Position numbers and translations under genes: made by a program. From Pseudeuparius sepicola (taxonomy: Eukaryota; Arthropoda; Insecta; Coleoptera; Anthribidae): 64,000 nt of DNA. The stretch is taken from positions 26,242,901 through 26,306,900 of the forward strand of contig OY987299.1 of NCBI GenBank assembly GCA_963920635.1, read 5' to 3'. Of this stretch, positions 806 to 63,768 are shown one piece after another. Below the pieces are notes generated by a model, which saw only the letters and a list, made by a program, of their open reading frames with translations, did not search any database and was not told the origin of the DNA. The first letter of the stretch is position 1. The number at the start of each line of letters is the position of its first letter.

Positions 806-908
806 TCCCGCCGGCCTTGAAATTTTAGTAGATTTCAACAAACTATAAATAAATACACTCAGAAACATAAAAGCCCTTGGCTAAGTCACATCCGGGAAAA
901 GCAAAAAC

Positions 909-6238: not shown

Positions 6239-6485
6239 CTCGTCGGATGTTCGTACGCCAACGACAGTACAGGCTATACAAAACTCAAAAACCACTAAAA
6301 TCAAGGAAATCGGAAAGGACTCACGGAATCCGTCTTCGTGTTCGCTGTCTACGGCCTGGGTGGTAGGATCGTCGTCCCTCCAACCGCCGTGTCGCTCGCC
6401 CCGTGTGAAACCGCCGCCGTTGTCGATCGCTCGTTCGTTGTTTCTTCTCAAATTACCCTGCCTCCATGCGGGTCGAAGGTCCAGA

Positions 6486-6764
6486 TGTCGGGGGGTGTCT
6501 CGTAGTGGGCTGTAGACTGGTCCGGAGGGGGTAAAATGGAAACAACTCGCACTATAGACTCGTATATTCGCCGACTTTTGCAGAGCCACCATCCACCGGT
6601 CGATGCTCAATGATGGCGGCAGGCGACTTCTTCTCTCTCTCTCTATCGGGGAAAAGACCGACGTTGGGCGGCGTTGCGCGTTCAGCAGTTCGAACTTGAT
6701 TTGCAACGCGCCTAAAACTAAGACTAAATCTAAATCTAAACACATCATGCCGTATGCGGCAACA
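6486..6764 (-). repeat. 5' LTR of the BEL/Pao element
   Basis: This 279-bp LTR is the upstream one because the element runs on the minus strand. It matches 527-805 throughout. The right boundary is fixed by the CTCTG duplication at 6765-6769. It lies about 70 bp upstream of the Polinton polymerase start codon and is divergent from it, so it could affect that promoter. Confidence 0.95.
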
Positions 6765-6776
6765 CTCTGCTTATAG

Positions 6777-6820
6777 TATATAGGTTGCGGTGCCGCAGAT
6801 GCTAGACATACTGCTTCAGT
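6777..6820 (+). promoter_or_regulatory. Possible polB promoter (TATA and TCAGT initiator)
   Basis: A TATATA stretch starts at 6777 and a TCAGT initiator lies at 6816-6820, 14 bases before the polymerase ATG. The spacing (about 41 bases to the initiator A) is longer than the usual 30, so only the initiator is convincing. The BEL LTR ends only 12 bases upstream of the TATA stretch. Confidence 0.35.
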
Positions 6821-6833
6821 GCTTTGCTGCAAG

Positions 6834-9800
6834 ATGGTTGTAGAAAGTGAAATATCTGCAGTCAGTGACAAAACTGTCAAAGTTTGTGAGAAAGCGTTTA
6901 ATACGCTAAATGGTGGTAGTTCAGCTGTACATTCACAAGTATCGCAATGTTGGCAACAACATTTAAAATTGACAATACGACAACATTACTCAGCGCTTCG
7001 ATGTAACTTTAACCATGGTACTATATCCAAGTTGCATGCCAATTTGCAACATTTGAAAAGACTTCAACTATACTTCAAAACGTTGAACAAAACTGGTGCC
7101 GGAAAACGTCACAATAGAAGTGTACGAGTTAAATGGTTGGACGTTCAGGCAGCGTTCCAGAATCGAATTCGCACAGGTTTGATAGTGAATATGAGACATA
7201 TTGACATATGGCAGTTTTTTGATGATGCATTTATCCTCTTTAAATATCGTATAACTCGAATATTAAATGCTTTTCACATTGTCAAGTGGTTTCAAGATAA
7301 TGTTGTTGATGCACTCATAAAAAAGATTGAAGATTATCATCAACATGGGTCTGGTTGCAGGTTACGTAAAATATTAAGTTTAAATATTAACGTCAATAAA
7401 TATGAGATTGGGAACGGGGCTTCATATCTACCACTCCCTGTGGAAATTTATAAAAAACGTTCGTGTATCAATGTAAAAAACGATGATGAAGCTTGCTTTT
7501 TTTTGGAGCGTTATTTCCGCACTCTATCCGATTAACTCTAAAAACCATGCTGATCGCACTAATTCATACCCGCTTTACAATCAGTTATTAAAATTAGATG
7601 GTATCGATTTACCAATGAAAATACCTCAAATATCGAAATTCGAACAGATGAATGACATTTCTGTGAATGTGTATATTTTGGAGCTGGTATGTGAGGCTCC
7701 GCGTAAATTTATCACTTCCCCAGCTCGATTAACTAAAAATAAAATGGCCCGTCATGTAAATCTACTTCTAATTCAAAACCATTATTATTTGAAAACTAGC
7801 GATTTTGACGTTCCACCTGTAGATGATTCGAATATCGATATAAAATATCATTATTGTTGGATTAAAGATTTATCTAGACTGATTTCGAAACAGTCAAGCA
7901 AACATAATGGTCGAAAATTTATATGTGAAAGATGCCTAAATTACTTTACATCTGACGCTAAATTAGAGAAGCATACAGTTTATTGCGAGCAAATAAATAA
8001 CTGTAAAATCGAGTTTCTGAAAGAGAAGTTTATCGAATTTAAAAATTTTGTTCATAAAGAACGCACTCCATTCGTTTTGTATGCAGATTTTGAAGCAATT
8101 CTAAAACCATGTGGAGATTCTAATGATACACTGAAAACTGACAAATATCAAAAACATGAAGCATTCAGTGCTGGATATTATTTCAAGTGCTCCTTTGATA
8201 ACTCACTCTCTTTCTACAAAGGTTATCGCGGAGTCGATTGTATGGTATGGTTTGCTAGTCAAATGGAGCGAATTGCTAAGTTTGTATCCAGCAAATTGAA
8301 ACATGTTGAACCTATGGATGAAACTATAAGCCTTAAAGATGCCACTCCTAACTGTCACATTTGCGAGAAAAAATTTAATGTTAATGACATGATTGTTCGC
8401 GACCACTGCCATCTGACCTCTATATTTCGCGGATATGCACATCAAGCATGCAATTTAAATTACCAGAACTCATTCTTAGTCCCCATAATTTTTCACAATC
8501 TTAGTGGATATGACAGTCACTTTATAATACGAGAACTTGCCAAACGGAATCATGTCACACTACTTCCTGTAAATAATGAAAAATATATTAGCTTTACAAT
8601 ATTTGATAATGAAACAAATATTAAATTTCGGTTTATTGATTCTTTCAAGTTCTTAGCCTTCTCTCTCGACAAACTCACAGCATCTCTAAATACTTTTGAA
8701 AATACTAGAAATGAATTTCCTTCTGAAAATTTTGAGTTGCTAACTAGGAAAGGTGTTTTTTGCTATGATTACATCGATTCAATGGAAAAATTGCAAGAAA
8801 CCTCATTACCACCTATTCAAAATTTCTATAACAAATTAAATGATTATAATATCGATGAAAAAGATTACAATCATGCTCAATTAGTTTGGGAGAGGTTTGG
8901 TATAAAGACTTTGGGTGGGTATTCTGATCTATATTTGAAAAGTGACGTACTTTTGTTGACTGATATATTTGAGCAGTTTAGAACCACTTGTCTTCGAAAT
9001 TATGGTTTAGATCCGGCCTGGTACTATACTTTACCTGGATACAGTTGGGATTGCATGCTTAAATATACGAAATGTAAATTAGAAACCTTCCAAGACAGTG
9101 ATATCTTAATGTTTTTCGAAAGGGGCGTTCGAGGTGGGGTTAGCCAGGTGAGCCACCGCTTTTTTCAGGCCAACAACAAATATATGGAAAATTATGATGT
9201 TAATATGCCGTCAAAATATATTCTTTATGCTGATGTTAATAACCTTTATGGCTGGGCGATGTGTGAACCTCTTCCTTACGGAGGATTTGAGTGGGTGTCT
9301 GATATCGATGTCACAAAGGTTGCTGATGATGCTGATGATGGATATATTTTAGAAGTTGATTTGTCATATCCTGATCATCTTCATAACCTCCATAAAGACC
9401 TTCCGTTCACACCTGAACACTGCAAACCTCCAGGTTCCAAAATAAAAAAGCTCATGACCACTTTCTATGATAAGAACAATTATGTGATTCATTATAGAGC
9501 GCTTAAGCAAGCTTTACAACATGGCTTAATTTTGAAAAAAGTTCATAGAGTTTTGAAATTTAAACAGTCTACCTGGTTAGCTCCCTATATACAGCTCAAT
9601 ACTCATTTAAGAACTGTGACAACGTTGGATTTTGAAAAAACTATAATGAAGCTCATGAATAATGCAATCTACGGTAAAACAATGCAAAACGTTAGAAAGC
9701 ATAGAATTGTTAAACTATTAAGGAAATGGGATGGTAGATATGGTGCGAAAAATTTTATTTCTAGCCCGCGTTTTAGACGTAGTGTAATTTTTGATGAGAA

Positions 9801-10448
9801 CTTAATAAGTGTTGAATTAAATAAGACTAATATTATGTTTGATAAACCTCTGTACGTTGGAATGTCTATCCTAGACATATCCAAAACCTGTGTATACGAA
9901 TTCCACTATGATTTTATGTTGAAAACATTTTCTGATAACTGCTTATTATTATATACTGATACTGATAGTCTAGTGTACGAAGTACGTTGTGAAAATATGT
10001 TCGAAGACGTAATTAAGAAACATATCCATCGGTTTGATACCAGTGACTATCCCGCAGATAATCCATATGGAATTCCACTCGTAAATAAGAAAGTGCCCGG
10101 CTTAATGAAGGATGAATTAAACGGCAGTATCTTGACACATTTCATTGGTCTTAGATCTAAAATGTATACTTATAAAGTTCAAGGAAAAATATGTGTGTTA
10201 AAAAATCAAAAGGTGTCAGGGGTTCCGTTATAGCGAAGCAAATAACATATCAAGACTATTTCGATTGTTTATTTAATAAGAGCGAAAAAATTGTAAATCA
10301 GCGTTCTATACGCTCATTTGCTCATAACGTTTTTAGCATAAGTCAGACTAGGATTGGTTTAAATCCATTTGATGATAAGCGTTTTCTAGTTGATAGTATT
10401 TCAACTATCCCTTGGGGTCATAAAGATGTGTGTAAAGTTGATGAATAA
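6834..10448 (+). pseudogene. Polinton protein-primed family B DNA polymerase, two frame breaks
   Basis: This is the replicative polymerase of the Polinton, predicted to copy the element using a protein primer. I choose the ATG at 6834, 16 bases after a TCAGT motif; the frame upstream has only a GTG. It has an N-terminal region, a C2H2-like finger near 7,920, exonuclease motif YADFEAIL near 8,080, an HNH-like segment (DHCHLT, AHQACN) near 8,400, exonuclease II near 8,490, motif A (DVNNLYGWAM) near 9,230, motif B (NNAIYGKTMQN) near 9,660 and motif C (YTDTDSLVYEV) near 9,955. The frame changes twice: at a run of eight T at 7,497-7,504, and near 10,185-10,195 in an A-rich stretch. All catalytic motifs survive, so the breaks are recent or are homopolymer sequencing errors. 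Confidence 0.88.
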
Positions 10449-10583
10449 GAAAATATATATTTTGCAAATAGTGTTTTACTCCCCCTTCAACTGAAAATGT
10501 ATCCACCCCTACTAACGTCCTAGCCACACCCCATCCCCCACCAGCCGCCTCCTTGCGGACGCACCCCTACCATCCCTAGATTG
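10449..10583. other. C-rich non-coding spacer inside the Polinton
   Basis: This spacer has an AT-rich start and then a strongly C-rich plus strand (runs such as CCACCCC and CCCCCACC), unlike the AT-rich neighbours. A similar C-rich patch lies near the right end of the element (18,529-18,570). No gene is seen in it. Confidence 0.6.
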
Positions 10584-10616
10584 TATATAACTGAGAAATC
10601 CCCATCATTCTTCAGT
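10584..10616 (+). promoter_or_regulatory. TATA box and TCAGT initiator of the CHHC gene
   Basis: TATATAA at 10584-10590 is followed at the canonical spacing by TCAGT at 10612-10616, with the predicted +1 A at 10614 exactly 30 bases from the first T of the TATA box. This is the arthropod RNA polymerase II core promoter arrangement and decides the start codon of the next gene (10650). Confidence 0.75.
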
Positions 10617-10649
10617 CTGATAACCCGCAACATCGACAACAGCATCAGC

Positions 10650-10862
10650 ATGTACAACCAACCAATCCAGTTTGTGTCAGATTTGGTTCCCTGCCCATAC
10701 GTTGCCAACCACATGGTGAAGCGAACTCGACTCCAGAATCACTTGGTGAAGTGCCGCCTCCAGTTGAGTACTGTGCCTGAAATAAATTGGGGGGAATATT
10801 TCAAGACAATCAACAACCAGCCGCCAATTGTCATTGTGAATCCAAGGGTTAGACCAGAATAA
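10650..10862 (+). CDS. Small CHHC zinc-finger protein, GTSF1/Asterix-like (70 aa)
   Basis: This is a 70-residue protein with one U11-48K/GTSF1-type CHHC zinc finger: Cys15, His21, His31, Cys35, with spacing C-x5-H-x9-H-x3-C (CPYVANH ... NHLVKC). The CPY-x3-H and HL-[VI]-KC signatures are those of the first finger of GTSF1/Asterix proteins, which are cofactors of Piwi-type small-RNA silencing. GTSF1 has two such fingers plus an acidic tail; here there is one finger and a short tail with Trp47. The start at 10650 follows a good TATA/initiator pair; the frame is open further upstream but would start before the predicted transcript. It lies next to polB and converges with the minus-strand genes. 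Function is not shown by the sequence. A tRNA- or RNA-binding role, or interference with Piwi cofactors, is inference. Confidence 0.75.
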   Translation: MYNQPIQFVSDLVPCPYVANHMVKRTRLQNHLVKCRLQLSTVPEINWGEYFKTINNQPPIVIVNPRVRPE

Positions 10863-10905
10863 AAGTATATTTAAATAAAAACACAATTTGTAATCATTGT
10901 TTTAT
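10858..10905. terminator. Back-to-back polyadenylation signals at the convergence point
   Basis: AATAAA on the plus strand occurs at 10858-10863, overlapping the stop of the CHHC gene, and again near 10876-10881. On the minus strand AATAAA is formed by TTTATT near 10900, overlapping the stop of the 10,902 gene. The two transcription units therefore end face to face with almost no spacer. Confidence 0.6.
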
Positions 10906-11540
10906 TCCAATCTTCTTCTATACAAGTCTGCTAACAGGAATTGATTATAATAACAGTACAGTTCAAAAATGCAATGTGTTTCCATGCTAAACACAGCATT
11001 ACACATTAAGAATACAATTTCCATTACATTTATGGCATAGTTGCTACGTACTAATAGTTCATTAGCCTTATCTAAAAAATTGAGGTAAAAATCATACAGT
11101 TTAAAATTAAGCAAAAAGTTTATCCTTAAGGTTATGTATGGTTCGATATTTAATAGCTCGAAAACCTCCGATATTGAAAACCATTGGCAAACACCATTTT
11201 TTGCAAGCAACACTCGTTGATTTCCATCTGCAGTCAACATTGTTCTTAACATTATATTAGAATCAAATCTGATAAACATAGATGTACCCAGATTGCTGGT
11301 GAAGTTGCTCAAATGATTCACTAATTCTTTCCATTCCAAATGATCCAGTGAAATCACATTTCGACGCACTGTTGATTGGATATTTACTTGAGGTTTGAAA
11401 TATCTCATAATACTCAATCCATTAGCAATACTATATGTAGGCAATGTGAAACAAGATGATAAAAGCATAGAATCTTCGTCCACATTGTTTACTTCTTCAT
11501 AATCGCTACCACTATCAGTTTCATAGCCGCTGTCAACCAT
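10902..11540 (-). CDS. Unknown Polinton protein with acidic N-terminus (212 aa)
   Basis: This is an intact frame. I place the start at the ATG at 11540, because the longer frame opens only with TTG. The first 30 residues are acidic and serine-rich (SGYETDSGSDYEE). The middle has a segment (RRNVISLDHLEWKELVNHL) loosely like the PC4/p15 single-strand-DNA-binding fold found in some viral and transposon proteins. The last 80 residues are hydrophobic and helical without a clear membrane span. The gene begins just after the integrase stop codon (11,557) and is last in the minus-strand series. I do not recognise the family with certainty; a DNA-binding or transcription role is only a guess. Confidence 0.6.
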   Translation of the reverse strand: MVDSGYETDSGSDYEEVNNVDEDSMLLSSCFTLPTYSIANGLSIMRYFKPQVNIQSTVRRNVISLDHLEWKELVNHLSNFTSNLGTSMFIRFDSNIMLRTMLTADGNQRVLLAKNGVCQWFSISEVFELLNIEPYITLRINFLLNFKLYDFYLNFLDKANELLVRSNYAINVMEIVFLMCNAVFSMETHCIFELYCYYNQFLLADLYRRRLE

Positions 11541-11556
11541 GTTATCGTTTGTAGCA

Positions 11557-12483
11557 CTACACAACGTTTGACTCGTCTATCCAAGAATCGTGGGTCTTAT
11601 CAAACCCTAGCCATCGCACCAATACTCTCCCTCTTTTTCTACGAAGCACTTTTTCAACCAGATAAATATCAGAATTTGCAGTTTTTTGCAATTCTTCACG
11701 GTAAAACCCACCCTTTATAGATCTCCCACTTAAATCTTCTAGAAGATATGTGGGAGGATTGGTTATTTGTACTTTACTTATTTTAAACAATTCTGTAGTC
11801 CAATTAGGTGTATATCCTTTAGCAAATATGTGTTTCACTTTACTTATTCTCACAATATCGCCAACCTTCAATTTTCTACCTTTGAAAATCTTCACGTGAC
11901 TATACACTTTTTTAAGCAGATATTGTTCATTGGTTTTATTAACTTGGTTGGGTTTCATTTGAATCACTCTATGTTTTCTGTTATTATAATCGACAACTAG
12001 CGTAGGCAAATAATCATCCCATTTAAATTTACCATTTAGACTAAAATACTTAAATAATCGCTCTTTTAGAGTTCGTATTACTCTCTCAGCCATGGAGGCT
12101 TTCGTGCTGCTAAAGGTGCTGTAATGATTAATTTTGAATTTTCGCATCAAATTTTGAAATCTTGAGTTATAAAACTCTTTGCCCTGATCAGTTTGCAGGT
12201 TGCGAGGCTTTCGACTTCCCGATAGGATGTCAGCGAAGGTGTTGGTAACATCTTCCGCAGACTTGGATTTGAGCGGTCGACACCAAACAAATTTAGAGAA
12301 GCAGTCGATTACGACAAGTATGAATTTGAAACCATGATTGTGACTAGCATACTGATCCAGCTGAGCGAGATCGGCTTGCCACAAATCGTCTAAACCTTTA
12401 ATAATAGTTCGACGACGTGGATAATTTTTTCGAGCTGGTTTATGTAATTCCTTAACTACTTGAATTTTTTCTTTACTGTGCAT
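11557..12483 (-). CDS. Polinton integrase with C-terminal chromodomain
   Basis: This is a retroviral-type DDE integrase of 308 residues that would insert the element's DNA ends into the host genome. Catalytic residues are visible as Asp in DLWQADLAQL, Asp in LQTDQGKEF and Glu in SMAERVIRTL. An SH3-like segment (GDIVRISK) follows, and the C-terminus is a chromodomain (YLVEKVLRR ... VRWLGF ... SWIDESNVV), which commonly targets chromatin marks. An N-terminal HHCC zinc domain is not visible after the ATG at 12483; either it is absent or the true start is upstream. The frame overlaps the end of the upstream fibre-like gene by 28 bases. The core looks intact. Confidence 0.9.
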   Translation of the reverse strand: MHSKEKIQVVKELHKPARKNYPRRRTIIKGLDDLWQADLAQLDQYASHNHGFKFILVVIDCFSKFVWCRPLKSKSAEDVTNTFADILSGSRKPRNLQTDQGKEFYNSRFQNLMRKFKINHYSTFSSTKASMAERVIRTLKERLFKYFSLNGKFKWDDYLPTLVVDYNNRKHRVIQMKPNQVNKTNEQYLLKKVYSHVKIFKGRKLKVGDIVRISKVKHIFAKGYTPNWTTELFKISKVQITNPPTYLLEDLSGRSIKGGFYREELQKTANSDIYLVEKVLRRKRGRVLVRWLGFDKTHDSWIDESNVV

Positions 12484-12845
12484 GACAGTAAGGATTGCAT
12501 ACGCTTACCAGTTAATTTTAAATAATAATCTTCTATAGTTTTAGTCAATTCTCTCAATTCATCGATCTTATCTTGAAAATTTTCGATCATTGTGTTGCGA
12601 ATATGTAGATCACATTCATCAGTATGCTGTTTAAGATTTGTGTAAAAATATTGTAATGCATGAATTATCCCTTCATCGATATATTGTTTTGTGCTGGCAT
12701 CACTACCGTCGATCGGGGTCTTAACGTTGCTCAGTCTACGATTGTTACAATCATAGTTTCCCTCTAGATTCAAATTTAATGTGTAAATAGGTGGACAAGA
12801 CCTGCCCTTCGGTCTCGAAGCACGTCCGAACTTGTTTAAGGACAT
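12456..12845 (-). CDS. Fibre-like Polinton protein, copy 2 (129 aa)
   Basis: The protein starts MSLNKFGRASR, the same opening as the neighbouring gene at 12,874-13,230. It contains NRRLSNVKTPIDGSDASTKQ followed by YIDE. This is the pattern R-[RL]-x-N-V-x-x-P-x(4)-D-[AV]-x-T-K-x-Y that is typical at the head of tail-fibre or virion attachment proteins in phages and is also seen in Polinton proteins. A helical, probably coiled-coil region follows. It may be a minor virion protein or a spike component. Nothing in the sequence shows a receptor-binding domain, so the role is inferred from this motif only. Confidence 0.6.
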   Translation of the reverse strand: MSLNKFGRASRPKGRSCPPIYTLNLNLEGNYDCNNRRLSNVKTPIDGSDASTKQYIDEGIIHALQYFYTNLKQHTDECDLHIRNTMIENFQDKIDELRELTKTIEDYYLKLTGKRMQSLLSCTVKKKFK

Positions 12846-12873
12846 ATTTTAACTAACTTGAATGAACTATAAA

Positions 12874-13230
12874 TTATGAGACTTCTCTAAATGTATCTAA
12901 CAATTTGGGGTTTGGCTGGGCCTGTTCACCAACTATTTTCAAATAACACTCTTCAACGATTTTAGCAAATTTTCGTATTTCATCAATCTCCTTTTCCAAA
13001 GCATCTTTAACCGTACTCTCAATATAATTATTATGTTGTTCGAGAGTCGCGTTAAACGTTTTCAATGTTGCATTGATATTTTCATCGGCATATTGCTTTG
13101 TGACGACATCATTGCTGCTAATCGGATAACTAACTTTGCACAGTCTGCGGGTTTTGAAATCCCCCTCATAATTCAATGAGTAAGGACTAATCCTAGATCT
13201 TGAAACACGTCCGAACTTGTTTAAAGACAT
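12874..13230 (-). CDS. Fibre-like Polinton protein, copy 1 (118 aa)
   Basis: This is a paralogue of the gene at 12,456-12,845, sharing the start MSLNKFGR, the segment CKVSYPISSNDVVTKQYADE and a C-terminal helical region ending near a YLK motif. It lies 28 bases upstream of the second copy on the same strand, so the pair arose by tandem duplication and then diverged. The shared N-terminus suggests an anchor to the particle with a variable helical stalk. The function is unknown. Confidence 0.6.
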   Translation of the reverse strand: MSLNKFGRVSRSRISPYSLNYEGDFKTRRLCKVSYPISSNDVVTKQYADENINATLKTFNATLEQHNNYIESTVKDALEKEIDEIRKFAKIVEECYLKIVGEQAQPNPKLLDTFREVS

Positions 13231-13243
13231 CTTGTAAATAACG

Positions 13244-14182
13244 TTAGAGAATAATTTTCGCTTCCTTCATCTCATTAATTATGGCGATGATTTCGTTTTC
13301 GTGTGAAGTATTTCCGGCATCTTTCGATGCTATTAGTAACCTTAACCTGTCTACAAGTTCATTAGGATTATCCCAGAAAACATATTCCACAGGTTTTGTG
13401 TTATACTTAAGATGCATGCCAGAACCCTTCGCAGGCGTGGAGGTAGCCACCGGCCCCTTCATAAGAGGTTTAATAATATTAGAGTACTTAATTTTGTTGC
13501 TAGATTTTAATCGTCCCTTTGAAGTAAGGTGAGCACCAGTGAGATTTAAAATATCTTTGTAACTTTTCAAATCATCCTCAGTACTTTTTGGATTATCATA
13601 GAAAATTAGTTGGTAGAGACCATCAGTGCCTGCGAATCGAGTTTTGTTGATGATTATATCGCCAGACACTTTTTCAAAATCGATTTGTTTATTTCCTAGA
13701 CTCCATACTGATTTGGTTTTGTCATACTTAGGACCATATTTCCAATCGATTTTAGGCGATTTATCCATAAATTCAGTTACGCATGATATAGCTACTTTAG
13801 GATATACATTATCAAAATGTCCGTACACTTTGTCAATTCCTTTCTCAACATCATTTAAAGTTTCATTCATTTATCCTAAAAGTGCAATTGGACTTTTCAA
13901 AGTGTTGCGCCACTTTTCCATAAATGATTCGACTTTCGGTTTTAGTTCCGGTTTTACTTCCGGTTTTAATTCATCCTTAACTTGTAGACTTGCTAGAGAG
14001 TTTGTCACAGGTTTGAAAATTTTTTGTAATGTTTCATCCTCCTCAAATTTACCTATTTTTAAGGCGGTATATTTTTTTCTAATCGTTCGAGCTAGTTCAC
14101 TGATTTTCTTTGCGCGCTGCGCTTCTTGAATCTGTTCTTGCATCAACATCTCGATTAATAATAAGCGTATTGTGCTTATCAT
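13244..14182 (-). pseudogene. DUF8207-like Polinton protein, interrupted by an in-frame stop
   Basis: The frame starts at the ATG at 14182, which overlaps the ATPase stop (ATGA). The first 103 codons encode a basic helical region with a KPEVKPELKPKV-type repeat. A TAA at 13871-13873 then interrupts it and is followed at once, in the same frame, by ATG at 13870 and 208 more codons. The second part has the GTDGLYQLIF and YKDILNLTGAHLTSKG segments that I recognise from the DUF8207 family common in Polinton-bearing animals. Relatives, as I recall them, carry both parts in one chain, so the stop looks like a nonsense mutation. The immediate ATG could alternatively allow two proteins. The function is not known; a virion role is plausible from its place between ATPase and fibre genes. 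Confidence 0.65.
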
Positions 14183-14906
14183 AACTTTATATACCTATCA
14201 AACCCTATTCTATATCGACCCTCATTCATATTGAAATCTTTAACAATAACCAGAGTTCCAAAATTGGTATCATTCCAGCAGAGTGAGCATAGATTCTTGA
14301 AATCTCCGTATGAGATGTCTGGTGACACGTGTTCGTCATAAATATGTTTAAGGTTTACCTCATCTTGTTTAAATAAAACGATTACATTACATTACAATTG
14401 TCTCGTATTAATTGTTTAGGTATTTTTGAATATGTCTGGCACAGATATGCAACATCTATACTTTTATGGCGACCCATGGAATAAAATTCTCTAATTTTAT
14501 CCTGTTTGTCACAAGACACGTCATCAAAAATAAAGACTGAATTTTCTCTAGCCTCCGACGGTGCAATGACGTCATCGTTTGAACTAAATGGAAAATAACC
14601 AACACATTTAGCTTTTTTAAGAACATCTTGTAGTAACTGATATTTAGGTTGGTAAAGGGATTTACTGTAAAGGTAGATGTTCTTAAATTTCAATCCATTC
14701 TCGTTGAATATTAAACTAAGTAGACTGTTTGTTTTGCCACAACCGCTAGGACCGCAAAATATAGCTCTAATAGAGTTTGGCAAGAGTACTCCATGTTTAG
14801 ATTTCTCACTCCGAACAAAATCTAAATTTTCGATTGGTAGAGATAACTGATGTGGTTCGATGCGCATCTTATAAACATCTAATAATATATCACGTGCTTG
14901 CCTCAT
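14179..14906 (-). pseudogene. Polinton packaging ATPase (FtsK/HerA type), frame broken near its end
   Basis: This ATPase is expected to pump the genome into the capsid. It shows Walker A GPSGCGKTNSLL, Walker B SVFIFDDVS, and a downstream motif AYLCQTYSKIPKQLIRDN. The frame reads from the ATG at 14906 to a stop at 14382. The remaining C-terminal part (about 65 codons) continues in another frame down to a TGA at 14179-14181. The break coincides with three tandem copies of ATTAC at 14381-14395. A 5-bp slippage there explains the shift. Both Walker motifs are upstream of the break. The end overlaps the start of the next gene by one ATGA, typical of a tightly packed Polinton. Confidence 0.85.
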
Positions 14907-14988
14907 ATATACATATCAGGATGTAAATAATAAACAGTTTTTCAATTAAGAATATTTATTTCCTACAGTGATATAGATTAATACATTT

Positions 14989-15425
14989 TCAAGGGAGGTA
15001 AGCTCGAATCTTCTGCTGCACAAGACTTCTGCACAGTGGGCATTTCTCCATGAAGTCTGCACAACTCATACAGCAAACCAAATGTCCACATGGAACCATC
15101 AAGACTTCTATGTCTTTGCAGTAGCAAACTTTACATGAAAACTCGATTGTAGTTTGGGGATTCGTGCTCCGAATGGCTTTTTCGGGTGGAATGTCCACAG
15201 GTTTGATTTCCCCCTTAATGAATGAACAATTAGGACTCCAGCTAGCATGATCTTGCCATGGATCATCATCCTTTTCCCATTTATATCCTTCGATATTGCA
15301 AAATGGACACTGGACAACGTCTTCATAATTCGTATAAAAAAATCCCGCTCGGGCATCTTTTCTGGGGATAGGAGGCTTGACCAGTTTTCAAACGTTCTTA
15401 GAAGACTCTCGTAATTATACTCCAT
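14989..15425 (-). pseudogene. Inhibitor of apoptosis protein: one BIR domain plus RING, one frame break
   Basis: This is a baculovirus-like IAP carried by the Polinton. The ATG at 15425 opens with the BIR entry RTFENW. The frame then shifts once around 15,365-15,385, after which the BIR core is clear: a C-x2-C pair near 15,300, a Trp-rich helix and H-x6-C near 15,240. The last 55 codons are a C3HC4 RING (CKVC ... CGHLVCCMSC ... CPLC), the ubiquitin-ligase half of IAPs. IAPs bind caspases or their activators through BIR and mark partners through RING. The protein would be about 145 residues, shorter than two-BIR baculovirus IAPs. It overlaps the end of the upstream membrane-protein gene by 28 bases. 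The lesion is single, so it is recent or a sequencing error. Confidence 0.85.
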
Positions 15426-15820
15426 CTCTCACTCAGTAATATTCTTACTATTTCAATAAATAATTTTGCTACTAGCAATGAAGAACATATAGTAATGTAG
15501 TAAATTAGTGGTACAAATGTGAGGTCTTTTATATGTTGTTCTTGACTGAGTTCTCTGGGTGTGACCATTGTGGGCGTGGTGGAAGGTGGGATCTCCCTCC
15601 ACACACTTTCAGCAATCGTATGATTTTGTACGGCTCGAAGTTTAAATTGTGTAGCATTTTTAGGTAGGCTTGCTACCAAAATTTTTTCAACTACCGTCTT
15701 AAATGGGAAACATTTTTTATCCTGGTCGCAAATAGATACCTTAGCATCTTCAGGGTTGTAAATATAGAACACATTATTTATTAGTGAGAACAATATAATG
15801 TGACCCAATCTCAGCAACAT
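15398..15820 (-). CDS. Small membrane protein of the Polinton (140 aa)
   Basis: This is an intact frame from the ATG at 15820. Residues 1-20 form a hydrophobic signal-like segment (LLRLGHIILFSLINNVFYIY). An ectodomain follows with two Cys and N-glycosylation sequons (NAT, NHT), then a Thr/Pro-rich stretch. A second hydrophobic segment (LIYYITICSSLLVAKLF) lies near the C-terminus and is followed by a short basic tail. The layout is that of a type I membrane protein. A TATA box and TCAGT initiator lie directly upstream. I do not recognise a family. An envelope or membrane-interaction role is possible, but no fusion motif is visible. Confidence 0.65.
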   Translation of the reverse strand: MLLRLGHIILFSLINNVFYIYNPEDAKVSICDQDKKCFPFKTVVEKILVASLPKNATQFKLRAVQNHTIAESVWREIPPSTTPTMVTPRELSQEQHIKDLTFVPLIYYITICSSLLVAKLFIEIVRILLSERWSIITRVF

Positions 15821-15830
15821 CTTGATTATA

Positions 15831-15863
15831 ACTGAAATGTCTCGATAAATGTTCTTTTATATA
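15831..15863 (-). promoter_or_regulatory. TATA box and TCAGT initiator before the membrane-protein gene
   Basis: On the minus strand TATATAAAA begins at 15863 and TCAGT spans 15835-15831, putting the predicted +1 A at 15833, 28-30 bases from the TATA box and 13 bases before the ATG at 15820. The downstream IAP gene overlaps this gene and could share the transcript. Confidence 0.7.
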
Positions 15864-15870
15864 TGAGGAT

Positions 15871-17106
15871 CTACATTAAATCTCGTACAGTTTCACTTAA
15901 AGGTAAATATTCCATTGCGCAGTCATGAATAATTATGCAGTAGGCTCGAGTTCTATCAGGAAACCCACTGCTGTTTTCTATGTCCAGCTTAACGTCAACT
16001 GTGTTTAATTTTATAGATTCACTCCGGCGAGAACAGTCAATGACAAACAAGGTTGCATTATCTTTGTAATCTGCATAGCTAAGTAGCGGTCGACTCTCCC
16101 CCACATTCATATAACTTGAATAAAATTCCACATAACTGTGATAGACCTCCAGAAAGTCGTTACCATCAAAATTCAACCTCTGACGTTCGAATGGAAAATA
16201 TTCACCGTTTACAATTAATCTCACATCTGTCGTATCTATGTGATCAAATGCCGTGGGATTTTTTTTTGAATTCTCATTGCGATTAGTCTGAAATCCCACG
16301 ATGACGTACCGAGGAGTTGACACTGCTGCAGATGACTTTACAGCCCATATTTCTCTTCGGGAGTTTACAGTAAGATTTGGCAATTCGTGTAACTCCCACT
16401 TACGGAACGCAATTATAATTGGACGATCAACTTTTATATATTTAAGGAGATCCAATCTAATCATATCATTCGGCTGAATATGTTTAACTTTTAATTCAAT
16501 GTTGGAAATTGTTATTTCTGCAGTTATGGCAGGAAGCGGGGTTGCAGAGTCTTGGGTTAGTAATAAAGCATTGTTATCATTTCGAGCTCGTATTAATCTC
16601 ACTGTTTGTTTGCCGCAAATTGCCATCTGATAATCGTTGAATATTCCAAACAGATGTTTTAGCGGTATTCTTACATTGAATGTTCCATCATTGTTGACAG
16701 CGAAAGATTTATCGACCCCAGCCCAGCTCGCTGTTGACATATATTTTTCGTCACTAGTAGTATAGCAAAGATACGATCTGATTGTGCTTACAATTCCCGG
16801 GTTTCTCACTACCTCCACTTCTTTACCATTTAGTTCGTAAGAAATAGAATCGAAGAGAAATGCCCCCGCATTGTTGGATAGTTTACAATCTCCGGCACCA
16901 GTTTTCTTAGTCACTGCACCTTTGACAAAAATTGAAGCATCGTACATCAATAACCATGCATCACCCTGATTAATGGTTATTTCCACAATATCATTATTCC
17001 TGAATGACTTTACAAATGGGTAATAGGTGCGCTTCTCTAAACGTTGGATAGATTCATCATATTTGGGAGTGCGATGCACATTAAACACTTGAGGTGTTAG
17101 GGACAT
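15871..17106 (-). CDS. Polinton major capsid protein (double jelly-roll)
   Basis: This is the hexon-like capsid protein. The ATG at 17106 is the start, since the longer frame opens only with TTG. At 411 residues it is short compared with many Polinton major capsid proteins but continuous. It is rich in beta-strand patterns, with the second jelly-roll marked by NTVDVKLDIENSSGFPDRTR and the closing motif AYCIIIHD, which is characteristic of the family. The N-terminal part (TYYPFVKSFRNNDIVEI) and the segment DVRLIVNGEYFPFERQR also fit. The product should form pseudo-hexameric capsomers. It overlaps the small basic protein gene upstream by 26 bases, and no stops or shifts are seen. Confidence 0.8.
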   Translation of the reverse strand: MSLTPQVFNVHRTPKYDESIQRLEKRTYYPFVKSFRNNDIVEITINQGDAWLLMYDASIFVKGAVTKKTGAGDCKLSNNAGAFLFDSISYELNGKEVEVVRNPGIVSTIRSYLCYTTSDEKYMSTASWAGVDKSFAVNNDGTFNVRIPLKHLFGIFNDYQMAICGKQTVRLIRARNDNNALLLTQDSATPLPAITAEITISNIELKVKHIQPNDMIRLDLLKYIKVDRPIIIAFRKWELHELPNLTVNSRREIWAVKSSAAVSTPRYVIVGFQTNRNENSKKNPTAFDHIDTTDVRLIVNGEYFPFERQRLNFDGNDFLEVYHSYVEFYSSYMNVGESRPLLSYADYKDNATLFVIDCSRRSESIKLNTVDVKLDIENSSGFPDRTRAYCIIIHDCAMEYLPLSETVRDLM

Positions 17107-17245
17107 AGCCAAGTGCTTTTAAAAATTGCTGATTTTCCAACGAGAGCCGACCTGCACCCTTCCGTGAAATCTTTACTAGTGAGTTTTTACAGCGTTGTGA
17201 TTGCCTTTTATACGGTTGATATCTGTCACCAAAAACCAAAACCAT
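17081..17245 (-). CDS. Small basic virion-type protein (54 aa)
   Basis: The product is rich in Lys and Arg and contains KGAGRLSLENQQFLKALGY, close to a motif seen in small late proteins that precede the capsid gene in adintovirus/Polinton genomes. I start it at the ATG at 17245 because the frame further upstream opens only with TTG and a TATA box lies just upstream (17272-17277). Basic charge suggests DNA condensation or membrane-active core protein functions as in adenovirus minor proteins; this is inference. It overlaps the capsid gene by 26 bases and probably shares its transcript. Confidence 0.6.
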   Translation of the reverse strand: MVLVFGDRYQPYKRQSQRCKNSLVKISRKGAGRLSLENQQFLKALGYVPNTSSV

Positions 17246-17251
17246 TTTGTT

Positions 17252-17277
17252 TCTGATCGAACTCAAAAAATTTTATA
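17252..17277 (-). promoter_or_regulatory. TATA-like box and TCAGA initiator before the capsid pair
   Basis: Minus-strand TATAAAA starts at 17277 and TCAGA spans 17256-17252, about 23 bases apart to the initiator A, which is short for a canonical promoter. It sits nine bases before the ATG of the small basic protein. Confidence 0.4.
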
Positions 17278-17983
17278 CACGCTTCAACTCCAACCGCACA
17301 ATTATTTCCTCACCTCTAAAATTTACAGGCTGAAAGTTCTGATCGAGAATAGTTAACGTTAAATTATGAATCTCACGATATGCAACTGGCATATACACCA
17401 AATGTTTCGGAGACTCGTCTATGGCGTAACCAGGATCACTGCTAACTGCAAACTCGTAAATCGTATGAGTTGGTTGATTTTTATAGTATGCTCCAGATGT
17501 TACGTTACAATCTATATGTATAGTTCTGACCTTCACGATGTTTACAGATATATCAGAAGTATGTAATTGACCAGACTCTAATAGACTAGGAGAAAACCCT
17601 AACACATGAGCAATAGAGTCTGTTGGTCGAAAATCTACTGTATATTTATCACTGTAAATTTCGCACTGTAAGGTGCTATTATTAGCCTTTATTGAAATTG
17701 GATTTTTCTGATCAGATTCCTCTTTTCTTAAAGCGCGAACTATGTACGCTTCTAGAGCCTCAATTTCATACGACCCTGTGGGAATCACTAAACAATTGCG
17801 ATATCCATCAGCGTTTATATAATAAAATTTGTTGACACCAACATCTATATTGGGTATGCTGTTATATGTGTGTAATCCTAGGAGTGCCAAACCATACTCA
17901 ACATCTGGTTCTAAATGTATAGGAATATTAAAGTCAATAGATAGTGTTGAAGTAAATCCATGCAGGGTGAACAGCAGCGACAT
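17273..17983 (-). CDS. Polinton minor capsid (penton, single jelly-roll) protein
   Basis: This protein of 236 residues is counted from the ATG at 17983. A longer start at 18061 exists, but a TATA box at 18013-18019 points to the shorter form. The N-terminus has LEPDVEYGLALLGLHTYNSI, the middle DFRPTDSIAHVLGFS, and the C-terminus THTIYEF and then LTLTILDQNFQPVNFRGEE, all of which recur in Polinton penton proteins. It would form the pentameric vertices of the capsid. It lies directly upstream of the basic-protein and major-capsid genes, so the three structural genes are contiguous. Confidence 0.8.
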   Translation of the reverse strand: MSLLFTLHGFTSTLSIDFNIPIHLEPDVEYGLALLGLHTYNSIPNIDVGVNKFYYINADGYRNCLVIPTGSYEIEALEAYIVRALRKEESDQKNPISIKANNSTLQCEIYSDKYTVDFRPTDSIAHVLGFSPSLLESGQLHTSDISVNIVKVRTIHIDCNVTSGAYYKNQPTHTIYEFAVSSDPGYAIDESPKHLVYMPVAYREIHNLTLTILDQNFQPVNFRGEEIIVRLELKRV

Positions 17984-17984
17984 G

Positions 17985-18019
17985 ATTGACGAATCTTCTC
18001 CACAACTACCACTTTTATA
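17985..18019 (-). promoter_or_regulatory. TATA box of the penton gene
   Basis: Minus-strand TATAAAAG starts at 18019, with an initiator-like TCAAT at 17989-17985. The predicted start would be only a few bases before the ATG at 17983, which is an unusually short leader. Confidence 0.55.
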
Positions 18020-18180
18020 GGCCTCGACCACAAACATGAAAAATATTGTAATAAAAAACATACAAACAAATAATATTTTATTTTCACAATTTTACACTTT
18101 TAAACTTTTTATTTAACTCGTACATAATAATCATGTTTTCAGCTTTTCCAATTCTTCGATATGGCGACGTAGACTCACGT

Positions 18181-18474
18181 TCATTCTTCAGAAAATATAA
18201 TATTAGTCGTTATACCAACAGGTCCCAAGCTTGTTAAAAAGTACCTTTTGTTATCACCATTCAACTCATCTATACGTTCTTGAGTTAATTTATCCGTAAA
18301 CCTCTGCGGTAGAATCATCTTGAAGTCTTCAAATTCCACAACCACCTTTTCACCATACTTAGTATTTATTCTCTTAAAACTCTGAATCTCAAACTTTTCA
18401 TTTACTTCCAAATCTCGAACGTTCACCAGATTTTTCTGCAGCAAGTTCTTATTTAAATTGTTTAAGAAGGACAT
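18181..18474 (-). CDS. Small Polinton protein, possible OB-fold (97 aa)
   Basis: The start is the ATG at 18474. The frame is open further upstream, but through the terminal repeats. The product has an N-terminal helical stretch and then a beta-rich core (EKFEIQSFKRINTKYGEKVV, ILPQRFT, DELNGDNKRYFL). The pattern of a strand, a K/R-N/T-x-Y-G turn and a strand of acidic and hydrophobic residues resembles small OB-fold proteins I associate with Polintons and could bind single-stranded DNA for replication. It is the outermost gene at the right end. The functional reading is tentative. Confidence 0.55.
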   Translation of the reverse strand: MSFLNNLNKNLLQKNLVNVRDLEVNEKFEIQSFKRINTKYGEKVVVEFEDFKMILPQRFTDKLTQERIDELNGDNKRYFLTSLGPVGITTNIIFSEE

Positions 18475-18566
18475 GTTGAGTTTGTTGACAATATTCGCTG
18501 AACCTTGCCTATATAATGTAGGGACCTCCCCACCCCAGAGTAGGGGTGGACCCCACCCTCCCCCAA

Positions 18567-18680
18567 ACCCTATGAGAGCATGACGCCACAACCCCTATGA
18601 GAGTATGACGCCAACCGAAAACCCCTATGAGAGTATGACGCCAAACTTGTTGAGACAGGTTTGGCGTCATGCTCTCATAG
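18567..18680. repeat. Terminal direct and inverted repeats at the Polinton right end
   Basis: Three direct copies of a 22-24 bp unit (CCCTATGAGAGTATGACGCC) start near 18,567, 18,592 and 18,622. The last copy (18625-18646) is repeated in reverse at 18659-18680 with one mismatch over 22 bp and a 12-base loop. The retroelement sequence begins directly after this hairpin. A C-rich stretch lies just inside (18,529-18,570). Confidence 0.85.
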
Positions 18681-18681
18681 T

Positions 18682-19980
18682 CTTACTACTGACATCCTAG
18701 AAATCCCAGTAAAAAATAATATCCTTACCATAAGAGACGAACTAACAAAATTTACCCAAGCTTATGCACTTCCTAATAAAACAGCGAGATCTGTAGTAGA
18801 CGCTCTTTTACTCTATTTTCAACATTTTGGAACTCCCTTAAGAATCCATTGCGATGTAGGTAAAGAATTTAATAATCAATTAATGAAAGATCTTTGTAAA
18901 TTATACAATATAAAATTAACTTTCTCTAGTGTTAGTCATCCGAAATCAAATGGCTCCTTAGAAAGATTTCATGCCACCTTAACTGAAATGATACGCGCGT
19001 GTAGTACAGAAAATCCTAACGAACACCCATTTCAAATGCTTCCTTACGCTTGTATAGCATATAACAATTCTATAAATAAAACACACGGCTTTACTCCTTA
19101 CGAATTGCTATTCGGTCACACCTCGTCTCGACCTCCAGAAGTTTTGTATAATCAGCAAGAATTAATCTCGTACGTTCGAGATTTAAACAATAAAATAAAG
19201 CATTATTATGAAGTGGCAAGAAAGCGTACAGATATGCGCAAGCAAAAAGCAAAACAGCGATTTGATACACACGTTTCGGAGCAGCAACAATTTCGCGTAG
19301 GAGAAAAGGTTTATGTCAAGGAGTCCCAAATAAAAAATAAACTAGCTAACAAATTTAATGGGCTCTATAAAATTAAAGAAATTTATACGAATTCAGCTTT
19401 GCTACATAACCCAATTACTAACCAAACTACAAAAATGAATTTTGATATGCTAAAGAAATGCCACGAATTGGAGGAAGAAGAACTAACGGTTAAAGAATTC
19501 TTTTATACTCTAGATCGAAAAATCCCTATTGAAAATAATAACGTTTCCATTGAACTGGGCAATTTATTTGATGCCCCTGAAAATATTTCATTAGCTCACT
19601 GTGTATCTAAAGATTTAGAAATGAATGCACGAATTGCAAAAGAATTTAAGAATAAATTTGGACACGTAGATGAACTAAAAAATCAAAATAAGTCAATTGG
19701 TGAAATAGCAGTACTTCAACTTCCGACAAGAAATATTTATTATTTAATAACTAAAGAATTTTTCTATTATAAACCAACTTATGCTAATTTATTTAATTGC
19801 TTAAAAGAATTACGGACAAATTGTCTCGAGAGCACTGATGAAAAAGATAAAATTATAGCTATACCCAAGTTAGCTTGTGGATTAGACAAATTAGATTGGG
19901 ACACAGTTCTCCCTATGATCAAATATATTTTCAAAAATACTGATATTAAAATAATTTGTTATATCGAACCAAGTTCCTAA
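18682..19980 (+). CDS. Retroelement integrase fused to an OARD1/TARG1-like macro domain (partial pol)
   Basis: One uninterrupted frame encodes the integrase core, its SH3-like tail and then a macro domain. The integrase has Asp at DILEIP (18,691), Asp in IHCDVGKEF and Glu in SNGSLERFH with 35 residues between the last two, as in retroviral integrases. After the GEKVYVK segment and a linker, about 145 codons (19,543-19,977) match the ADP-ribose glycohydrolase family OARD1/TARG1: IELGNLFD, SLAHCVS, GEIAVLQL, YYLITKEF, YKPTYANL, ACGLDKLDW. The Lys of YLITK and the Asp of CGLD, which correspond to the catalytic Lys/Asp of TARG1, are both present. The macro domain would remove ADP-ribose from proteins or related compounds. 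The fusion is in frame with no stop between the parts. Confidence 0.9.
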   Translation, partial: LTTDILEIPVKNNILTIRDELTKFTQAYALPNKTARSVVDALLLYFQHFGTPLRIHCDVGKEFNNQLMKDLCKLYNIKLTFSSVSHPKSNGSLERFHATLTEMIRACSTENPNEHPFQMLPYACIAYNNSINKTHGFTPYELLFGHTSSRPPEVLYNQQELISYVRDLNNKIKHYYEVARKRTDMRKQKAKQRFDTHVSEQQQFRVGEKVYVKESQIKNKLANKFNGLYKIKEIYTNSALLHNPITNQTTKMNFDMLKKCHELEEEELTVKEFFYTLDRKIPIENNNVSIELGNLFDAPENISLAHCVSKDLEMNARIAKEFKNKFGHVDELKNQNKSIGEIAVLQLPTRNIYYLITKEFFYYKPTYANLFNCLKELRTNCLESTDEKDKIIAIPKLACGLDKLDWDTVLPMIKYIFKNTDIKIICYIEPSS

Positions 19981-20021
19981 TTCTGAAACTTCGTTACAGA
20001 TTTTCTTTGTTCGCTACCGCT

Positions 20022-21864
20022 ATGGCACAATATACACTGCGACCAATTAATAACACCATAGGCGTGTTCTATCAAGAGCAATCCGGACTCAAAATTTCTA
20101 ATGACAAGTGGAGTTTATTGGTATATAAAGACATTTCATCTCTAAAAACAACATTCGAAAATAATAATAAAATTTTAGAAAATATGCAATTTATAATTCA
20201 ACCAAAAGACGTACGAATGGCCGCCTTTCTAAGCGAAGTTAAGTCACATCTCACTTTACTAAATCAACTTTCCGAAAACATTGCGCTCAAATTTGTAGAA
20301 TTAGCTATTGATGTAAGAAGATATAAGAGGTTTAATTAATGGTTTAGGGTCAGTTTGGAAATTTATTACCGGAAATTTAGACGCTTCAGACGGACAGTAT
20401 TATAACGATTGTATCGACAAAATTAACAGAGACGAACACGAATTAGAAAAATTATTGAAAAAACAAATTTTAGTAACTACTTCAGTTATCAAAAACTTTA
20501 ACGACTCTATCAACAAATTACAAATTGATGAAATTACTTTTAATAATGACATAAAACAAATCGAAAATTACATTTATAACATTTCTGTTAATTATTACAC
20601 TGCAAAATTACAAGTTTTAGAGATGGCCGAAAGACTCCTAGAATCCTATACCTTTATCGAAAGCAATTTAAATGACATTCTAAACTCTATTACTTTTGCA
20701 AAGTTACATATCATTCACACGTCAGTTATAACTCCTGAAGACCTGGTTCATCATTTGCAAATAATCGCTCAAACTTTAAACAAAAATAATTTGCCCTTAA
20801 CTCCTCAACTTCTAAATGTTGCAACTTATCTTGATTTTATAGAACTAAAGGTTTTTCAAACAGAAAATAGACTTGTTTTTATATTAGACATTCCTTTAGT
20901 AGAACCTCAATGGTATACTCTTTATAGAATTTATCCTATTCCAATTTTCGACAATAAAACTGGATTTTATCACATAGTATCCACTGATACTAAATTTGTA
21001 GCAAAAAGCGATGACCCAACTCTCTATGTAATTCTCTATGATATAAAAAATTGTAAAGAACTAGCATTTGATTTAATAATGTGCAAAGATTTATATCCTA
21101 CTCCTATTGACTCACATTCAAGATGTGAAGCTCAATTATTAGAGGTAAAAACCCATTTACCTAATACTTGTGACAGAGTCACAATTTCAATTGAAAGTTA
21201 CAATGTACAATTGATTCAAGAGAATCAATGGTTAATAATTTTAAGTGAAATATTTCCTATAACTATTAAGTGCAAAAATCAAAATCCTTTGACTATAATG
21301 CTAGACAAAACTTCAATTTTAACGTTAAAATCTGAATGCATTGCTTATATTAGAAGTACTAAAATTCAAACGAAAAATTTAAATAAATCTAATCAAACCT
21401 ATAAATTTCACCCAATTAATATACCATTTGAATGTTGCAAAGAAACTCCAAATAAACTAAAATATCCTGACTTAAAACCTTTACAACTAAATAAATTTAA
21501 TTATGACGATTTAAATGTCGCAAAGCATAAATTAGACGAATATGCAAAGGATCTTGATAATATTATTAACGAACCAACTGTAAATAAGTATACGCCAATA
21601 TTGACATATCTATCCATTACTTTAATCATACTTTTAATTATTGTGTACTTTTATTTTAAATGTAAAAAGTCTAGGAACATTAAAATAGGCATTATTACTA
21701 CTAATAACGGAGACGATCCTCCACAACCTCCTAGAACTCGAAATCGCGTTTTTCAAAATTTAAGAAAATTTGTTACTGTCAAAAGAAGACCTTCGTATAG
21801 ATTGGACGAACCTCGCGAAGAAGAAGAAATTGAACTAAATTCTAATACCAAAACATATGCCTAA
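20022..21864 (+). pseudogene. Errantivirus-like envelope (F-type) gene, frame broken near the cleavage site
   Basis: This gene encodes an insect errantivirus envelope glycoprotein related to baculovirus F proteins. The first ATG is at 20022, with the signal peptide probably supplied by upstream spliced sequence. The first part ends in a stop at 20337-20339, just after a basic, furin-like stretch. The rest, beginning with a glycine-rich fusion-peptide-like segment near 20,340, continues in another frame to 21,864. The shift therefore falls at the expected proteolytic cleavage site (about 20,320-20,335). The second part has a long helical region, a Cys-containing ectodomain, a transmembrane segment (LTYLSITLIILLIIVYFYF, near 21,605-21,660) and a cytoplasmic tail. 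As it stands, it cannot make a full-length envelope protein. Confidence 0.85.
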
Positions 21865-21912
21865 TTTAATGTCAAAATTTGTTAACACAAATTTTTAATA
21901 TAAGGGGGAAGG

Positions 21913-22324
21913 TGTTATATCCGACCTCAAGCATCACCTTGAGCATAACCTTGTTTTTACCCTTGATTCTGTTTACTGTTGGATATTATGTTCTCATTCT
22001 CTATTGTTCAAGATGCTTACTACACAGATATCATTTTCCATTGTATATTGTTCTAGAATGATTACTAGAACATATCATATTCCTTTTGAGTATTGTTAAA
22101 ACTTGCTTACTGCAAGAATTGCAGAATTTGATCTTCCCTTTGTCTTTATATTCTTTTCCCATGAGAACCACAACACCTCAGCATAACAGATCTGTATAAA
22201 TAGGACCTAGTAAAGTAAGAGTGTTAATTCTAGTCTTGTCTGTAGTCTAAGCCGAAACTCTGTAACTCGCGTTACTCAAATAAAAGTTTTTTAAAAAGTC
22301 TTCGTCTTCACGTCGCCCGTAACA
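21913..22324 (+). repeat. 3' LTR of the errantivirus-like element
   Basis: This LTR of about 412 bp begins TGTTATAT directly after the polypurine tract and ends GTAACA. It contains TATAAATA at 22,195-22,202 and a polyadenylation signal AATAAA at 22,279-22,284. No partner LTR is in the window. The flank after it is TATATA, the kind of target errantiviruses prefer. Confidence 0.8.
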
Positions 22325-31753: not shown

Positions 31754-32009
31754 TCATTAAAACCAAGTCTTCCGTTTCTACGGTCTATTTGTACACAAAA
31801 TATTTTTTGTTACATAAGTACATTCATCAAAAATAAATAATCTCTTCTCTGGCTTAACAAATAAACCTAACATTAATTCTGCATTGAGAAATAAGTAGTT
31901 TTAAAACATTAACTAACAGTACCTTGAACAACATTTCTCAGTTAAAATGTTCATGTTGTGACACAACAGTTGAAGTTAAAGCTCGTATATTTTGTGTAAC
32001 TGAGTAGCA

Positions 32010-63768
<31,759 letters not shown>

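Follow-up and report, generated by a model that had tools for sequence, protein, structure and literature searches.

The window analysed here (64,000 nucleotides, positions 26,242,901 to 26,306,900 of contig OY987299.1) comes from the anthribid beetle Pseudeuparius sepicola. It contains the 3' part of a Ty3 retroelement in which the Pol reading frame continues from the integrase into a macro domain of the TARG1/OARD1 type. The stop-to-stop frame (18631-19980) is 449 codons long and is open from integrase through macro. Pfam analysis of the 432-aa translation placed rve at residues 2-87 and Macro at residues 308-412 (22.0 bits, equal to the cut-off). With rve_3, these were the only domains found at E values up to 1, and no chromodomain was among them. 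The window integrase shows 64-72% sequence identity to nine Pol proteins, two of which are named as beetle (Anoplophora and Diabrotica).

The frame opens with 17 codons that belong to the end of a Polinton, and the Ty3 integrase homology starts at about 18682-18691. Because the frame begins at the Polinton end, the 5' part of the retroelement is absent from this copy. The integrase is cut off at its zinc-binding part and at the first positions of the core profile. Downstream of the macro domain lies a Baculovirus F-like env gene, in which a frameshift divides the first part from the remainder. In another copy (L016), the corresponding env open reading frame (ORF, from 1932 on) is a single frame with a Baculo_F match at 19-485 (129.6 bits, compared with 118.3 bits in the window). 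The window macro also has an altered residue in its glycine-rich ligand loop (the family residue is found in 47 of the 49 rows readable there, and the window is one of the two exceptions). Judged by the Polinton truncation, the split env and the altered loop residue, the window copy is a decayed relic of the retroelement. An earlier note on this DNA had read one open frame from a DDE integrase core into a complete macro domain. The continuity and the complete macro stand, but the integrase is 5'-incomplete and the copy is decayed. The features of the locus and of its neighbourhood are listed in Table 1.

Table 1. Features of the retroelement copy and of neighbouring elements (positions in the window)
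Feature	Positions	Strand	Evidence and remarks
Integrase core (5'-truncated) and integrase C-terminal region, Ty3 pol	18682..19455	+	PF00665, E 4.7e-10
Linker, same frame	19456..19533	+	End resembles the pre-macro linker of other macro-carrying elements, by eye
TARG1/OARD1-type macro domain	19534..19962	+	phmmer, Pfam, alignments, predicted fold
Stop codon of the pol-macro frame	19978..19980	+	Frame reading
env reading frame, first part	19950..20339	+	Overlaps the pol end; frame call, stretch not Pfam-scanned
env main part, Baculovirus F-like	20317..21861	+	PF12259, 118.3 bits, E 5e-34
Polypurine tract	21902..21909	+	By eye
3' long terminal repeat, 412 bp	21913..22324	+	TGTTA...TAACA; 40 of 42 genome matches cover 1-412; 6 fetched pairs have the same ends
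Polinton terminal repeats, truncating the retroelement 5' part	18565..18680	.	Unit x4, 0-2 mismatches; shuffles expect 0
Polinton	6777..18680		By eye; integrase, ATPase and capsid-like ORFs on -; repeats at its right end
Polinton PolB	7477..10233	+	By eye
Bel/Pao element	527..6764		By eye; adjoins the left part of the Polinton
Bel/Pao long terminal repeats	527..805, 6486..6764		Identical, 279 bp, CTCTG on either side
MRP-type ABC transporter exons	32000..49000	-	By eye; probably a host gene

Type and catalytic residues of the macro domain

A phmmer search against PDB sequences (E up to 1) gave six distinct sequences. Five of them are TARG1/C6orf130 (E 3.6e-36 to 7.3e-36) and cover residues 5-148 of the translation of 19519-19977; the sixth is a weak match to DarTG (E 0.1). 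The predicted structure of the macro has a predicted local distance difference test score (pLDDT) of 90.4, and its eight best PDB matches are all human TARG1 (4j5s_A, E 1e-17, template modelling scores 0.86 and 0.90). The identity to TARG1/OARD1 is 49% over 137 aa, with the same fold, so the two belong to one macro class; human TARG1 is a host protein, whereas the window domain is part of a retroelement Pol. The Lys of YLITK (codon 19753-19755) and the Asp of CGLD (codon 19885-19887), which the earlier note had picked out as the TARG1 catalytic pair, do align with those of TARG1. Among the family copies described below, the Lys is present in 49 of 49 readable rows and the Asp in 49 of 50. Both residues are invariant across 22 aligned sequences.

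Alphaviruses and coronaviruses likewise carry a macro fold within a virus polyprotein, and their macro domains are of the MacroD-like type. In the fold search, alphavirus chains were 13-15% identical to the predicted model, compared with 45-47% for human TARG1, and no coronavirus chain was among the 50 rows listed. A MacroD or alphavirus type for the window macro was thus ruled out by phmmer and the fold search. Of the types that the earlier note had named for comparison, OARD1 is the one that fits.

Copies of the fusion in the beetle genome

The genome searched has 769,049,646 bases in 16 contigs. The macro of the window element, referred to as family A, gave 907 candidate places. The best 150 were scored and all 150 match at 98-100% identity with no internal stop in the macro; the ranking favours the best candidates and is silent on decayed copies. 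Many of these frames are 1,498-1,499 codons long and one row reaches 1,851. Eight loci (L015-L022) were fetched around macro rows. The order scored in L016 is zinc-binding domain, integrase core, macro and env. The reverse transcriptase (RT) and RNase H of L036 and the H2C2 and rve domains of L016 lie in adjoining pieces of one natural copy. The family A piece that was scanned gave no protease match, and the window copy is without the 5' part.

Searching with the long terminal repeat (LTR) gave 854 candidates, 40 of which were scored. They yielded 42 matches, 40 full-length (the window's own included) and two partial. Twelve LTR pairs with TG...CA ends were recognised from the coordinates, 11 spaced 8.15-8.27 kb and one 10.5 kb. 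All 12 pairs enclose the macro (11 as seen in fetched regions, the twelfth through a macro-search row). The two LTRs are identical in six of six fetched pairs (0 of 412 sites differ), hence the family is young. The integrase-macro junction was present in 15 of 26 regions placed solely by LTR distance, and also in L077, which had been picked from a macro row. The 11 LTR-placed regions without the junction may be 5' LTRs, solo LTRs or displaced copies.

Family A is a young, abundant, envelope-bearing, errantivirus-like Ty3 family whose Pol ends in a TARG1-type macro. That the fusion lies in the Pol of an env-bearing Ty3 family is close to certain. The search for the junction in further copies and in elements with two LTRs, as the earlier note had proposed, was therefore successful. 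The rival source that it named, a host exon captured at the window locus alone, is contradicted by the widespread junction. A chance open frame or an assembly artefact at this locus hardly deserves any credence. The opening 17 codons are Polinton sequence in a fortuitous frame, but macros 98-100% identical stand at the scored places on many contigs and a like domain is found in Ty3 proteins from other sources. The scored family copies refute it.

Macro domains at other Pol borders

A search for macro-bearing proteins (about 500-1,592 aa) found seven matches among 183 candidates. One of them is P0015, a non-LTR-like protein taken up below. Six are Ty3 Pols or parts of them, and all six have the order RNase H, macro, zinc-binding domain and integrase. 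The Pfam Macro score was over the cut-off in three of the six; the remainder were recognised by BLAST at 47-54% identity. One macro-bearing Ty3 Pol is LOC123676417 of Harmonia axyridis. P0012 (Coccinella septempunctata) shares 55% identity with the Harmonia protein across 322 aa. In P0019 the RNase H is followed by the macro. One protein search (45 candidates) missed P0012 and P0013 despite their fitting length, and its recall is doubtful. For P0002-P0011, P0014, P0016 and P0017, absence of a macro refers to the covered part, and several of these proteins are fragments.

When the window's genome was searched with Pfam Macro, 54 of the best 150 of 435 candidates matched. Nine fetched loci (L026-L034) form a single family, B. 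Its member L027 has RT, RNase H, macro and integrase, and the adjoining piece has a Baculo_F env (59.2 bits). Family E (L134) has the order protease, macro, RT and RNase H, and in RT it shares 82% identity with family A. In family F, L138 has gag, protease, macro and RT; in L139, L140 and L143 only the macro before RT scored. Family C has the macro behind a protease-like stretch that scores under the cut-off (L038, 17.6 bits). Two of its three downstream pieces (L046 and L047) have env without RT or integrase, and the third (L045) gave no Pfam match to env. Family C may be a deletion form. The TARG1-type macro is found in at least three Pol positions, namely at the C-terminus, between RNase H and integrase, and between protease and RT. 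The fusion in Pol that the earlier note described holds for the C-terminus of family A, but this is merely one of the places used by its relatives.

No certain host OARD1 gene was found with a TARG1 query: the best 150 of 847 candidates all match, and the fetched rows are nearly all element copies. The best host-like candidate is L039 (G000:C1:131515500-131518800, - strand). It has an open frame with three tandem TARG1-like macros (629 codons in the fetched piece, 711 in the TARG1-query search). The first two macros are without the catalytic Asp motif and the third keeps both Lys and Asp. The ORF has no other Pfam domain, and the fetched flanks, which were not Pfam-scanned, have no ORF of more than 126 codons. 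L039 is possibly a host gene and the source of the family F macro. L135, initially taken for a host candidate, is preceded by a protease-like stretch (14.9 bits, below the cut-off).

The OARD1-like domains found in scans of viral and genome contigs were all bacterial or viral (32-40% identity). A pol query gave no match, nor did a phage megablast. Two other proteins carry a TARG1-like macro in a different setting. P0015 (535 aa) combines the macro with a GDSL esterase and a PHD match that is weak and under the cut-off (17 bits); it resembles ORF1 of non-LTR retroelements and would represent an independent capture. In P0013 (Molorchus minor), the macro is split by a stretch that weakly matches a LINE reverse-transcriptase zinc-binding domain (19.1 bits, under the cut-off).

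One capture or several

In the integrase tree, P0021-P0025 stand apart from a lineage that comprises A, B and P0020 (100/100). Family A sits among Pols without a C-terminal macro, and P0020 groups with B (99/95; long branches meet there). The RT tree places A, E and P0009 close together, the last with no macro in its covered part. The macro tree joins E to B and C (96/91), A weakly to P0019 (81/84) and F to the host-like L039 (93/87). The insect element macros, L039 and P0013 form one group (95/89) separate from human TARG1. An approximately unbiased (AU) test rejected the macros of A and E as one clade (P 0.008) despite their similar RTs, which rules out a single capture inherited jointly by the two families.

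The RT and macro trees conflict, and therefore the domain was gained or moved several times. This answers the question of one or several captures, for which the earlier note had looked to a phylogeny, in favour of several gains or transfers. With 10 of its 23 inner branches open, the macro tree has little resolution, so that host captures and transfers between elements are not distinguishable in it. The simplest reading of these trees would be that Ty3 backbones acquired the domain by gain or transfer on at least four occasions (in P0021-P0025, in B together with P0020, in A and in E), and probably on a fifth in family F. A less simple history, with an early gain followed by many losses and moves, is conceivable.

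Selection on the macro domain

The family A sample consisted of 56 copies (16 LTR-picked loci including L077, 39 integrase rows and the window). Five copies were dropped from the macro alignment for indels and one was without a row, which left 50 rows, some partial. Two of the 50 contain a stop. Macro variants shared by at least two rows are 10 nonsynonymous (N) to 16 synonymous (S), against a neutral N fraction of 0.767 computed with transitions weighted 2 (P 3.4e-5). Those seen in a single copy (private variants) are 38 N to 20 S (shared versus private, Fisher P 0.031). The integrase served as a control (53 rows, with two indel copies and one missing row out). It gave 1 N to 6 S among shared variants (P 0.001), 19 to 11 among private ones (P 0.079) and a Fisher P of 0.033. 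A smaller first run on the macro went in the same direction (N in 1 of 5 shared and 12 of 14 private variants; 14 of 22 for all variants, P 0.12).

Family B allowed comparisons between lineages. The macro ratio of nonsynonymous to synonymous divergence (dN/dS) in the less saturated comparisons is 0.21 for B2-B3 (0.102/0.482), 0.23 for B2-B4 and 0.29 for B3-B4; synonymous sites of the macro are near saturation between B and B2-B4. The corresponding ratios for RNase H are 0.11 (0.025/0.230), 0.19 and 0.24, and the RT ratio for B2-B3 is 0.08 (0.022/0.283). It was concluded that the macro is retained by purifying selection, with dN/dS values in family B above those of RNase H and RT. For B3-B4 the synonymous divergence is 0.124 in the macro versus 0.454 in RNase H. 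Such unequal values between modules of one pair are a hint of recombination. When B (L027) was compared with B2 (L132), the macro was 64% identical, RNase H 96% and RT 91%. In this pair the macro is also the more diverged at synonymous sites, and module exchange, faster evolution or both are possible.

Function of the macro domain

According to the available text of two papers, human TARG1 removes mono- and poly-ADP-ribose from Glu/Asp, and ADP-ribose from DNA thymidine and from the ends of RNA and DNA; a TARG1 mutated at Lys84 does not rescue DarT toxicity (10.1093/nar/gkab771; 10.1093/nar/gkz305). Since Lys and Asp are retained in nearly all copies, the element macro is most likely an active hydrolase, and we regard a functional ADP-ribosylhydrolase as very probable. 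Gag-Pol yields its Pol parts sparingly, and they enter the particle together. As a part of Gag-Pol, the macro would likewise be a scarce product that is packaged alongside RT and integrase and delivered together with the cDNA. There it would strip ADP-ribose put by putative host transferases on element proteins, RNA or cDNA (ends or bases). Its removal would keep a host ADP-ribosylation response from blocking replication or integration. The best explanation overall, which we consider probable, is a Pol-delivered ADP-ribosylhydrolase that undoes host ADP-ribosylation; this role is one that we infer, as did the earlier note for the removal of ADP-ribose from viral or host proteins. For a counter-defence against host ADP-ribosylation, we put the chances slightly above even.

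Repeated gains at different places suggest that hosts turn ADP-ribose tags against elements, and the varied position in Pol argues against a role bound to the integrase alone. Similar domains are found outside retroelements. VP8 of Kadipiro virus (BFVD A0A8E0KJF2), a double-stranded RNA virus protein, has a TARG1-like macro with 44% identity and the same fold; its carrier is a virus and not a retroelement. The same search found TARG1-like domains in several thrips-associated RNA viruses, an isopod iridovirus and an entomopoxvirus (26%), and bacteriophage macro domains matched as well. The presence of such domains in arthropod viruses of other kinds favours a common pressure such as host ADP-ribosylation.

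Two other enzymatic or binding roles were considered, and both appear unlikely. The macro may help repair, clearing ADP-ribose added by poly(ADP-ribose) polymerases (PARPs) from DNA ends or chromatin during integration gap repair, or from cDNA, with no antiviral response involved. The activity of TARG1 on DNA and RNA ends and thymidine agrees with this (gkab771 and gkz305, as far as their available text goes), and the domain accompanies RT and integrase, both DNA-handling enzymes. Such a role, which we regard as improbable, leaves the similar domains in arthropod RNA viruses unexplained, and the Pols nearest to family A are without a macro in their covered parts. The C-terminal chromodomain of chromoviruses has a targeting role. 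By analogy, the macro could read ADP-ribose on chromatin and guide the integrase to PARP-active sites. Family A has its macro at the Pol C-terminus, the place of the chromodomain in chromoviruses (PMC12440569, available part), and its insertions are numerous and young. In other lineages, however, the macro stands before the integrase or before RT, and pure binding would not need the conserved Lys and Asp; targeting is, in our estimate, the marginally less probable of the two. Retroelements generally capture host sequence, and an OARD1-like coding stretch could have been picked up by chance as a functionless passenger, for which the triple-macro ORF L039, with no other Pfam domain, is a possible host-like source. 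We find this very hard to credit, given both the within-family and the between-lineage selection tests, the conserved catalytic residues and the repeated gains at different places. The shared-variant N:S ratio contradicts a pure passenger.

Several observations weigh against an ADP-ribosylhydrolase retained for counter-defence. The nine Pols nearest to family A by integrase have no macro in the parts covered, so the macro may be dispensable. Seven of these nine stop within about 15 residues of the start of the family A macro linker; of the remaining two, one sequence is truncated and the other has an unusual gene model. For most of the nine the protease-RT border is outside the coverage and a macro there is possible; among close relatives of A, the stretch from RNase H to integrase is covered only in P0005 and P0010. 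The C-terminal position fits a targeting role equally well. Private macro variants are slightly below the neutral N fraction (38/58, P 0.036), and the neutral yardstick is therefore imperfect. Within family A, constraint seems weaker on the macro (shared N 10/26) than on the integrase (1/7). The domain-wide dN/dS of the macro is below 1 in the unsaturated comparisons and, with no site-wise test, gives no arms-race signature.

Relation to known systems and significance

Macro-domain proteins have been described in Epsilon-like endogenous retroviruses of fish (PMC4977317, available part). They are likewise retroelements with an added macro domain, and by this precedent a macro in a retroelement is not new in itself. 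In these vertebrate retroviruses the macro lies in additional open reading frames, as far as the same text goes, whereas in the insect Ty3 elements it is fused inside Pol at several positions. Chromoviruses also have an extra domain at the Pol C-terminus (PMC12440569, available part); theirs is a chromodomain, in contrast to a macro fold with variable position among the Ty3 relatives found here. In the portions of the open-licence literature searched, we found no description of a Ty3 Pol with a macro domain. Judged by that literature, the TARG1 type in insect Ty3 Pol is new, and so are its occurrence at three positions, its gain on several occasions and the signs of selection on it. The slot between RNase H and integrase, used by the macro of P0020-P0025 and family B, has a parallel in a different virus family. 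Non-primate lentiviruses carry another enzyme there, a dUTPase.

In vertebrates, the macro domains of viruses are standard evidence that PARPs act against viruses, and anti-transposon defence in insects is discussed mainly as small-RNA silencing. Tentatively, and with a little less than even confidence, we suggest that ADP-ribosylation is a real antiviral or anti-transposon defence in insects. Env-bearing Ty3 elements would have equipped their Pol several times over with TARG1-type erasers, acquired from hosts or from one another, at whichever Pol border tolerated them, as independent arthropod RNA and DNA viruses did. Ty3 Pol tolerates new enzymatic modules at its domain borders. A selected ADP-ribose eraser in the Pol of abundant insect elements points to an unrecognised ADP-ribose layer of the host-transposon conflict. 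It would also give a handle for tracing that conflict, through the question of which molecule of the element receives ADP-ribose and which host enzyme attaches it.
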